From the NCBI GenBank assembly GCA_947476675.1, contig CANJRL010000011.1:1-39128 (forward strand): a stretch of DNA of 39,128 bases. Direction: 5' to 3'. This DNA comes from Phycisphaerales bacterium. Its GTDB lineage: Bacteria > Planctomycetota > Phycisphaerae > Phycisphaerales > UBA1924. Below the pieces are notes generated by a model, which made no database searches, was not told the DNA's origin, and saw nothing but the letters and a program-made list of their open reading frames with translations. Shown in pieces: positions 6,054 to 26,014 of the stretch. Both the position numbers and the translations under genes were made by a program. How positions within the stretch are numbered: position 1 is the first letter of the stretch; each line of letters starts with the position of its first letter.

Positions 6054-7102
6054 ACTCCACCCCCGGAAGTCCCGGACGGGATCACGGTGTTCCGCCGACA
6101 GCGCGCGATGGCGTCGGGCTGGCGCTCCCGGCAGATGCCCTCTATTGGGCGGTGCTGGCGCCGATCCCGGGACTCGCCAGGGGGAGACGGGCCCGGGGCA
6201 GCGCCGCCAGGACCGAGGCCCTGCGGTACGCCTTCGAGCCGTGGCTGCCGGTCGCCCTCGACGAGGTCGAGGCACGGTTCGTGACGCTGGGGGATGGACG
6301 CACGCTGGCTTGCGGCATCGAGTCGCGGCGGCTCGACGAGGCGATCGGGGGCGCCGACCCGGCCAGCGTTGTTCCCGCGGCTTTGCCCGAGTGCGTGCGC
6401 CGCGAGATCGGCTCGGCGCAGGTTGACCTGAGCGCGCTGGAGTTCCGCAGCGGCGCGTTCGTCAGCCCCCGAGCCCGGCGGCGCGCCGCGGCCCTGCAGG
6501 CGGCCGCGGTGTGTTCCCTGTGCGTCTCTCTGCTGACGCTCGCGGCGGGGATGCAGCAGGGCGCAGCGCGGGATCGCCGCGACGCCGCGGCCGCGCGCGA
6601 CGCCGCCTCACGGCTCGCCGTCTCTGCCCTTGGTCTTGACACCGCCGCCGCGGCCCGCGGCCCGGCGCCGGAGCTCCGCCTCGCCGCCGAGGTCCGCGCC
6701 CTGCAGCGCACGCGGGTCAAGAGCGGACTGGCGTCCGGCAGCCCTTCGAGAGGCGAGGTCGAGGGCGCCGGGGGCGATCGCACCGCAGATCTGCTCGCGC
6801 TCTTGGGCGGCTGGCCGGAGTCGATCCCCGTCCGAGTCGAATCGATCGTCCTGGACCGCGACTCGCTCGCGCTGCGCGGCGTGGTGCGCGACGCGGGCGA
6901 CTTTGAGCGCCTGACGCTGGGGCTCGGCGAGTCGCTCCGCGCCTGGTCGCCGCAGGCCAAGTCGGCGGCCAAGGCCCGCGAGGGCTACAGCTTCGCCCTG
7001 ACCCTCCAGCGCTCATCACCACCGCCCCCGCCGCCGGCGACTGCGCCGCGTGTGTCGTCGGACGCTGCCACGCTCCACATCAGCAAGGCGGGATCGCCAT
7101 GA
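6050..7102 (+). CDS. GspL-like (PilN-like) T2SS assembly protein
   Basis: Probable T2SS inner-membrane protein that couples the ATPase to the platform. ATGA overlap with the preceding gene. Residues 1-145 form a soluble cytoplasmic part, a single membrane helix lies at about 147-167, and a periplasmic part follows with a heptad-like Ala/Arg region and a ferredoxin-like fold (LLALLGGWPESIPVRVESIVLDRDSLALRGVVRDAGDF), the hallmark of the PilN/GspL periplasmic domain. The tail is Pro-rich. The cytoplasmic part is shorter than in classical GspL and shows no clear actin-fold motifs. Identification is by topology and gene order before a GspM-like gene. Confidence 0.7.
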   Translation: MNSTPGSPGRDHGVPPTARDGVGLALPADALYWAVLAPIPGLARGRRARGSAARTEALRYAFEPWLPVALDEVEARFVTLGDGRTLACGIESRRLDEAIGGADPASVVPAALPECVRREIGSAQVDLSALEFRSGAFVSPRARRRAAALQAAAVCSLCVSLLTLAAGMQQGAARDRRDAAAARDAASRLAVSALGLDTAAAARGPAPELRLAAEVRALQRTRVKSGLASGSPSRGEVEGAGGDRTADLLALLGGWPESIPVRVESIVLDRDSLALRGVVRDAGDFERLTLGLGESLRAWSPQAKSAAKAREGYSFALTLQRSSPPPPPPATAPRVSSDAATLHISKAGSP

Positions 7103-24359: not shown

Positions 24360-24591
24360 TCATGAACGCCTCCTCTGAGAGATGAGACTTCCTCCGTATG
24401 CCGCGACGAGCAGCGCGACCGGTGGTGACGGAACGATGCTTGCGAGCCGAAACGTCGTGTTAAAGGGCAGCGGATCCTCCGGGAGAACCCAGCCCCACCT
24501 GTTGATCTGGTCGTTCTCCTGAAGAAAGAAGCCCCCCGGAGGGGTGCCCTTCCCCAAGAGGTAGTTCCCGAAACTCCCGGGCAACAGTTCG
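24360..24591 (-). other. Out-of-frame C-terminus of the SUMF1-like gene (PEP-CTERM-like tail)
   Basis: The frame that a shorter G tract would join to the upstream gene. It reads ELLPGSFGNYLLGKGTPPGG, then NDQINRWGWVLPEDP, FRLASIVPSPPVALLVAAYG and ends SQRRRS, TGA. FRLAS is the usual end of the SUMF1 domain, followed by a Pro-rich motif, a hydrophobic segment and an Arg cluster, a PEP-CTERM-like sorting tail. It lacks its own plausible start. Confidence 0.75.
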
Positions 24592-25413
24592 CCCCCCCCC
24601 CCCCGACACATCCAGCAACCCCCACGGCGCCGAGACGTTGGGATACGACCCGACGTCAGGCGGAAAGCCGAACGGCAAGTTCGCCCCGTACGAGGTCTGC
24701 GCCCCCGGCTGACCGGGAAGACCCGGCCGCAGCGGCGTGTCCTGGCCTCCGGGATGGAACCAGTAACCCTCCCGACCAGGGCCGTACTTGTTCGGGTCGT
24801 AGTAGGCCGCTTTGATGAACTGATCGAGATTCGGGATCCAGAACTTCGCGCCAGCCGCGGGGGTCGTGATATCGGTGAGGTTGCCGTTGGCGTCGCGCCC
24901 GAAGGTCGAGGTGTCGTAGACGCCGCGCTCGAAGTCGGCGGCGGTGGCGCGGGTGTGGTCGGGCTTGCCGTTGTTGATCCAGTTCACGAAGCGGGCCATG
25001 TAGCGCCAGCCGGCCTCGCGGGCGATGTTGAACCCCGCCGTGCCCTGCGGCGGGAAGTACTGCGGCACGCCGTTGGGATCAAAGCCGCCGAACCAGTTCG
25101 TGCCCGTGAAGCCGAAGTCACGGGCGTTCTCTGGCGCGATGAAGTACTTGTAGGTCTGCATGAAGTCCCACCACTGGCCGTACGTGACCGGGGTGGTGGC
25201 CATGCGGAAGGTCTGGGCGACCGCACCGACGCTGGGGAGCCCGGGAACGTAGCCCACCTCGGACGGCAGCGTCCCCCGGTTGCCGGGCGCGCCGATGGTG
25301 ACCCAGTTCCACGAGTAGTTGGGCGGCACGCCCTGGGCGGTCGACGGGGCCGACATCATCGCGATCGCGGACGCGGCGACGAGACTCCCGGGGATTCCTC
25401 TTTTCCACGCCAT
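24460..25413 (-). CDS. Formylglycine-generating-enzyme-like (SUMF1) exported protein, frameshifted at a G13 tract
   Basis: Exported protein of the SUMF1/FGE-like fold. ATG 25413 is preceded by a strong Shine-Dalgarno AAGGAGGTG five bases away and begins a signal peptide (SLVAASAIAMMSAPSTAQG). The domain shows FRMATTPVTYGQWWDFMQ, then GWRYMARFVNWINNGKP, FWIPNLDQFIKAAYYDPNK and APWGLLDVSGG, the usual SUMF1 order. As assembled, reading through 13 G gives an unrelated tail and a stop at 24460 (317 residues). With 12 G (one fewer) the frame continues to 24360 and gives a 350-residue protein with a PEP-CTERM-like tail. Either the tract is phase-variable, the gene is broken, or the read count is wrong. 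Confidence 0.8.
   Translation of the reverse strand: MAWKRGIPGSLVAASAIAMMSAPSTAQGVPPNYSWNWVTIGAPGNRGTLPSEVGYVPGLPSVGAVAQTFRMATTPVTYGQWWDFMQTYKYFIAPENARDFGFTGTNWFGGFDPNGVPQYFPPQGTAGFNIAREAGWRYMARFVNWINNGKPDHTRATAADFERGVYDTSTFGRDANGNLTDITTPAAGAKFWIPNLDQFIKAAYYDPNKYGPGREGYWFHPGGQDTPLRPGLPGQPGAQTSYGANLPFGFPPDVGSYPNVSAPWGLLDVSGGGGRTVAREFRELPLGEGHPSGGLLSSGERPDQQVGLGSPGGSAAL
24592..24604 (-). repeat. Homopolymeric G tract (13 G on the coding strand) in the SUMF1-like gene
   Basis: Thirteen consecutive C on the plus strand, G on the coding strand, directly after DVS codons. Such long G/C tracts are prone to slippage and are classic phase-variation switches. The in-frame length for the tail is 12 (or 15). 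Confidence 0.95.
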
Positions 25414-25635
25414 CCGACACCTCCTTGCCACGCCTGCCGCGGAGGATGCACGCCACCCGATCGAAGCAGGCATACGGGCTTCGGCGGTATCGGTTCCGGC
25501 GGGTGAATCGGTCGGCGCGATTCTTGGTCGGCTTGCGGCGTTCTTCACGCGGCGCGCACGCGGCGGTCGCGCAGTGTTTGTCAGCGATGCCGGGAACGCT
25601 CCCTGACGGTCGCGTCTCGTTCAGCAAACAAGACG
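25414..25635. other. Gene-free region upstream of the SUMF1-like gene
   Basis: No gene seen here on either strand. The SUMF1-like promoter probably lies in this stretch. Confidence 0.5.
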
Positions 25636-25820
25636 CCCCCTCACCCGGCGGCTGCTCGGCGACCCTCTCCCACTGGGGGAGAGGGTGCGGAGACGGGCGT
25701 GCAAAGACGAAGACCCCTCACCCTGCCCTCTCCCGGAGGGAGAGGGGTTCTAAAGGCCGTGCCCTCACCCCGCTGCTGCGCGGCGACCCTCTCCCACGCC
25801 CCCGGACGGAAGAGGGTGCG
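25636..25820. repeat. Cluster of CCCTCTCCC...GGGAGAGGG hairpin repeats
   Basis: At least two perfect 9-bp inverted repeats, 25663-25671 with 25677-25685 and 25726-25734 with 25738-25746, plus an imperfect third near 25789-25815. Each is preceded by CCCTCACCC(C/G) and, in the first and third, by GCTGC(T/G)CGGCGA. They look like dispersed intergenic elements. Confidence 0.75.
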
Positions 25821-25844
25821 GGCGCCGGCCCCGAAGGGGTCGCG

Positions 25845-25890
25845 GCGTGTAGCCGCGGGCTTCAGCCCGTGGAAAGCCGGCGCGCTCGAA
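25845..25890. repeat. Imperfect inverted repeat GCGGGCTTCAGCCCG-type element
   Basis: CGGGCTTCAGCCCG forms a short hairpin (CGGGCT / AGCCCG) within GTGTAGCCGCGGGCTT. It is a common type of intergenic repeat; nothing coding is seen around it. Confidence 0.5.
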
Positions 25891-26014
25891 CCCGCCCCGT
25901 GAGGGGCGGCGGAGTGCATGAACTATGTGCACACCCCGTCGCTGGCGCTCCGGGCTCATAGAGAATTGACGAGACGCGACCGTGAGGGAGCGGAAGGCGC
26001 ATGCCCGGCGGAGA

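Follow-up and report, generated by a model that had tools for sequence, protein, structure and literature searches.

Long pure G/C tracts are a known type of slipping sequence. In meningococci they form the commonest class among the strong phase-variable candidates (PMC5084427), and the locus described here resembles the poly-G/C contingency loci of Neisseria meningitidis (PMC5084427) in that a long pure run lies within the frame of an exported surface protein, where a one-unit change ends the frame early. It differs from the Neisseria meningitidis loci in being a single copy from an uncultured planctomycete, known from one assembled length; in the open-licence papers searched, no such tract switching was found for this organism. 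The second system to which the locus is close is PEP-CTERM/exosortase sorting (Haft et al. 2006, PMC1569441), with which it shares a proline motif, a hydrophobic stretch, an Arg cluster, an N-terminal signal-like segment, a multitude of tails and the presence of exosortase genes, whereas its motif is VPSP rather than Pro-Glu-Pro and the genome holds nothing beyond sub-threshold matches to PF07589, a model that recognises just 22% of the tails in that study. Two further papers describe phase-variation elements in PEP-CTERM-using genomes, namely mononucleotide repeats in capsule genes of Akkermansia muciniphila (PMC3048395) and invertons enriched beside PEP-CTERM genes (PMC11892184). There, unlike at the present locus, the repeats named lie in capsule genes and the link to PEP-CTERM runs through DNA inversion and not through an intragenic tract; in the available text of the open-licence literature, no report of tract slippage within a PEP-CTERM gene was found. 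If the tract were real and variable, it would be the earliest case in the literature searched of an exosortase-sorted protein whose phase variation is driven by a repeat, and a mechanism known mainly from work on host-associated bacteria would reach an environmental planctomycete lineage. A frameshift that is fixed, or a run that was miscounted, would instead be nothing unusual for a gene family with redundant copies, and would serve as a homopolymer warning for metagenome-assembled genomes.

The G13 tract and the frames it sets

The assembly comprises 174 contigs (2.72 Mb), and the tract gene lies on contig C11, within the window (the whole 39,128-nt stretch of DNA that was analysed). The gene is encoded on the minus strand and reads leftwards from an ATG at 25413, with the following features:

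25420..25426, minus strand: Shine-Dalgarno sequence AAGGAGG, 6 nt before the ATG at 25413, kept in the paralogues on contigs C97 and C1
25333..25413, minus strand: probable N-terminal signal peptide MAWKRGIPGSLVAASAIAMMSAPSTAQ, judged from sequence alone
24460..25413, minus strand: assembled 13-G open frame, which encodes an exported FGE/SUMF1-like protein of 317 aa that ends off frame and lacks the tail
24592..24604, minus strand: G13 mononucleotide tract (C13 on the plus strand) in the LLDVSGGGGELL segment, which with 12 G reads TCG GGG GGG GGG GGC
24363..24591, minus strand: rest of the gene in the 12-G frame, which takes in the closing portion of the FGE-like domain and then the tail, with a separate six-frame family match at 24363-24665
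24366..24437, minus strand: PEP-CTERM-like tail VPSPPVALLVAAYGGSLISQRRRS, read only with 12 G or with lengths that differ from 12 by a multiple of 3
24395..24536, minus strand: 142-nt repeat that recurs without any difference at the ends of contigs C97 and C36 that face each other, where the assembler broke a paralogue in two; a putative gene-conversion tract and an assembly repeat

The earlier note on this DNA had described 13 G immediately after WGLLDVSGG in the coding strand, an unrelated protein end in the assembled frame and, with one G fewer, a FRLAS end joined to a sorting-like tail, and our analysis agreed with it on all three points, including the position of the run. In the 13-G frame, WGLLDVSGGGG is followed by 43 unrelated residues and a stop at 24460, while the 12-G frame encodes 350 aa with the C-terminal end FRLASIVPSPPVALLVAAYGGSLISQRRRS, FRLAS leading into the tail, and a stop at 24363; either 11 G or 14 G leads into the third frame, which is non-homologous. 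The tract is 13 nt long and pure, and thus has the length and the position within a frame that slippage at a contingency locus calls for. Such a run is unlikely as a chance event in the 39-kb window, where the window's own GG and CC frequencies predict about 0.008 runs of at least 13 on both strands and the second-longest G/C run measures 8.

The tract copy itself matches PF03781 (SUMF1/FGE) at 14.4 bits (E = 0.03), under the cut-off of 23.3, and its assignment as FGE/SUMF1-like follows from the paralogues on contigs C5 (44.2 bits), C15 (47.0 bits) and C123 (28.4 bits), which pass this cut-off. Because the 12-G protein contains no Cys, formylglycine-generating enzyme activity appears unlikely. 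In the 12-G frame, the C-terminal region displays VPSP, the hydrophobic stretch PVALLVAAYGGSLIS and a terminal RRRS, and this combination of proline motif, hydrophobic stretch and basic cluster, as in exosortase substrates, recurs in the paralogues. The tail had been called PEP-CTERM-like with an Arg cluster, a description that holds for these three parts and has to be tempered in that the motif is not canonical and PF07589 gave 0 matches over its cut-off across the genome (best 19.3 bits against 20.7, none at the tract gene).

With the thirteenth G, the 12-G protein loses its last 76 residues (275-350), of which about 52 belong to the domain and 24 to the tail, and with them the positions E275, G289, R322, A324, P328 and P330, which are invariant in the family alignment. 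The 13-G product is therefore probably a truncated, misfolded protein. With both the domain end and the tail missing, a secreted working form is improbable, and on/off would fit any switch better; the suggestion that the tract toggles between an anchored and a secreted protein is thus weak. A search of solved structures with the family profile returned no match, and the predicted structure of the relative L075 (mean pLDDT 29) was too poor to place the tract in the fold.

The tract copy within its gene family

Searched with the 12-G protein, the genome gives 19 matches, some of which are two pieces of one gene, and the nearest paralogues lie on contigs C97 (91%) and C1 (80%). Nearly all copies in which the end is present share one type of tail, consisting of R-hydrophobic-A-S/A, [VIM]-P-x-P, a hydrophobic stretch and an Arg-rich end; the copy on contig C16 deviates in the motif, with VSSP. 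Two exosortase genes score over the TIGR02602 cut-off, on contigs C76 and C2. The closest relative genomes among those compared belong to other genera (about 41% identity), and a scan of named genomes found relatives in Phycisphaerales assemblies at 36-39% only, which makes this order the most likely source of the window. Upstream of the tract gene (25620-25910) we also observed inverted-repeat elements of the CTCTCCCGGAGGGAGAGGG type, and elements resembling the CTCTCCCGGAGGGAGAGGG inverted repeats occur within the N-terminal region of the paralogues on contigs C15 and C16, where the frame stays open through them.

In all other copies in the genome that span the tract site the frame is kept and no G run exceeds 6; at 20 sites from related genomes, the runs measure 4-6. 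In-frame homologues without the tract, whose existence the earlier note had taken to tell against its own reading, are thus found both in the same genome and in relatives, and a repeat kept across related genes, as might be looked for at a contingency locus, is not what the family displays. The counterpart of the tract on contig C97 is GGGCGGTGGGGG, 12 nt long and in frame. The aligned DNA reads GTG TCG GGC GGT GGG GGC GAA CTG on contig C97 and GCG TCT GGA GGC GGG GTG GAA CTC on contig C1. Because paralogues and relatives are in frame with short G runs, the pure run appears to be new in the tract copy; by this alignment, two Gly codons changed synonymously and one G was added, there or in an immediate ancestor, and the run is not a conserved element.

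The comparison between the tract gene and its paralogue on contig C97 changes sharply at the tract. Before it, dS is 0.39, with non-synonymous differences numbering 43.8 and synonymous ones 59.2; the tract and all that follows it hold 5 synonymous differences (two of them inside the tract) and 0 non-synonymous ones, giving a dS of 0.106 and a dN of 0, with a probability of about 0.001 that five of five changes are synonymous by chance. Coding constraint thus continues past the repeat, as would be expected of a contingency locus, and the lack of non-synonymous changes after the tract implies that the 12-G frame was translated until very recently, or is translated in part of the population, or that the extra G is unreal. 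The lesion is accordingly read from these substitutions as recent, reversible or a data error. Decay of an old pseudogene was ruled out, the frameshift being the sole lesion and all changes from the tract on being synonymous. Together with the 142 identical nucleotides, the drop in dS from 0.39 to 0.106 at the tract suggests recent gene conversion among copies of the family. Since the assembler split the other copy at this same 142-nt repeat, the join of the tract to its present tail may be a choice made in resolving the repeat; either possible tail, VAAYGGSLISQRRRS or VAAYAGGLTLLRRRS, is in the same frame.

Long G/C runs and poly-C leaders across the genome

We collected 38 distinct G/C runs of at least 9 nt in the genome (overlaps between contigs C150 and C160 being counted once), scored the codon phase on both flanks of each run with a codon model built from the 39-kb window, and inspected the doubtful ones. 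About 16 runs of 9-10 are clearly intragenic, and all of them keep codon phase. The G13 tract is the only run above 10 recognised in mid-gene and the only one that shifts the frame; the other apparent shifts (L101, L117, contigs C17 and C150, and weakly scored sites) fall at gene ends or in spacers, as judged by eye for L101, L117 and C17. Moderate runs (9-10) are correctly called, and the set holds no intragenic control at 12 or more. Contigs end in G/C runs in three places, on contigs C2 (12 C), C58 (19 C at the right end, the longest G/C run of the assembly) and C150 (11 nt), which indicates that long runs are where the assembler breaks; because contigs end in such runs, length calls at 12 or more are shaky and possibly off by one. 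Untrimmed poly-G read tails from two-colour sequencing are an unlikely source of these contig-end runs, since on the outgoing strand they consist of C rather than G. General frame damage of the tract contig was ruled out, as moderate runs are in phase and neighbouring genes, uppS and cdsA among them, match their Pfam models nearly end to end.

Eight runs of at least 12 were seen, where the decay of runs of at least 9 predicts about 0.9 (P ~6e-6), an excess of the kind expected if runs beyond a threshold grow by slippage. All but the one in the tract gene seem to occupy spacers or contig ends. Three of them (on contigs C16 and C174 and at the end of contig C2) share one repeated leader, GGATTTTCCTTGCAtA followed by a C-rich segment and TGTGGCATACTGCAT, and this leader precedes family members on contigs C15, C16 and C174. 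Its tract is pure on contigs C16 and C174 and at the end of contig C2 (14, 13 and at least 12 C, respectively) and interrupted on contigs C15, C63 and C138. The pure tracts occupy 30952-30965 on contig C16 and 416-428 on contig C174. TTGCAt and CATACT lie 19 nt apart on contigs C15, C16, C63 and C174, and 20 nt apart on contig C138. The pattern TTGC-N(8-26)-TGGCANANTG occurs six times in the genome, each time with a C-rich spacer (6/6); in relatives the same hexamer pattern is present without poly-C, and the poly-C form of the leader was absent from 25 relatives. A slippage-prone tract in a promoter spacer is a classic layout for transcriptional phase variation. The leader looks like a promoter with such a tract as its spacer, and is in this respect a candidate element of transcriptional phase variation. 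A similar layout was observed on contig C71 (6713-6740), where TTGC, a run of 12 C as spacer (6726-6737) and TTGTGGCAGAATG stand before a gene for a MauE-like membrane protein, with a prepilin-like gene behind it; both genes were identified by eye.

Origin of the extra G

Four explanations were ranked, with chance slippage first, miscounting second, selected phase variation third and slippage of the transcript or ribosome last. The one that we tentatively prefer, more plausible than any other taken singly and still far from assured, is that a slippage-prone tract was made by chance in one redundant copy and is not an evolved switch. The gene is one of many copies encoding exported FGE-like (SUMF1/PF03781-related) proteins with an exosortase-type C-terminal tail, and in this copy the change of GGC GGT to GGG GGG, synonymous relative to the nearest copy, would have created an uninterrupted G run. 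Slipped-strand mispairing would then have inserted one G, and at 13 G the ribosome would leave the true frame within the domain, read 43 unrelated codons and stop, so that this copy would presumably be off. Such a run would also be able to slip back, and the tract length is probably unstable in the population. We infer slippage in the pure run as the cause of the extra G; the +1 may predate the two substitutions.

Ranked behind chance slippage is a data artefact, an unlikely explanation that nonetheless deserves serious weight, in which the short-read data or the assembler miscounted a homopolymer that is really 12 G long or interrupted. Overlaps of 141 and 142 nt between contig ends point to de Bruijn assembly of short reads at a k of about 141, three contigs end in G/C runs, the coding constraint past the tract is intact, and the 142-nt segment adjoining the tract is common to another paralogue, all of which would fit a miscount. 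Homopolymer indels are a documented problem of Illumina metagenome data, above all past 14 nt, and are estimated to affect up to 1% of the genes in a metagenome (PMC8808543); the present run, at 13 nt, is shorter than the length said to be worst for Illumina. The intragenic runs of 9-10 that stay in frame also speak against a miscount, though none is as long as 13, and an indel error alone would leave unexplained why two bases differ so as to make the run pure. Among viral contigs, no exact match was found that would represent a second assembly of the tract site.

Selected phase variation would make the gene a contingency locus whose surface protein is on with 12 G and off with 13 or 14, while the poly-C leaders of its sister genes switch transcription. 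The distribution of long runs is in its favour, as one of the eight runs of at least 12 lies in a family gene and two in family leaders (contigs C16 and C174), with a third copy of the leader at the end of contig C2; so are the C-rich spacers in all six occurrences of the leader pattern, the conserved downstream frame, and the fact that surface proteins are typical contingency genes. We nevertheless judge it improbable, given that the coding tract exists in one copy only and is absent from sisters and relatives, that the poly-C leader form was not found in the 25 relatives, that the leader tracts are copies of one repeat and so not fully independent events, and that the off form loses domain positions and permits on/off at best. 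The earlier proposal of a slippage switch is therefore upheld insofar as tract length decides whether the C-terminal end and the tail are read and the downstream frame is constrained, and is weakened by the restriction of the tract to one copy. A wider version, in which poly-G slippage in the coding sequence of the tract gene and poly-C slippage in the promoter spacers of the leaders on contigs C16 and C174 and at the end of contig C2 would together lead cells to display different subsets of the family, seems slightly more doubtful still. Long homopolymers can also cause RNA polymerase to slip, and transcriptional or translational slippage on G13 could yield some in-frame protein, so that the 13-G gene would keep a low level of activity. 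The constraint on the frame past the tract would agree with this, whereas the paralogues lack the tract and hence offer no conserved recoding site, and we consider such slippage very improbable.

A diversity-generating retroelement, suggested by the lectin-like FGE fold, was rejected as well, on the reverse transcriptase search, in which the sole match looks fused to a TIR domain by eye. This match is an open frame on contig C22 (L129, 743-2425) with a PF00078 reverse transcriptase domain, a YADD motif and the apparent TIR domain at its C-terminus, and in its sequence it resembles retron-type or other defence reverse transcriptases.
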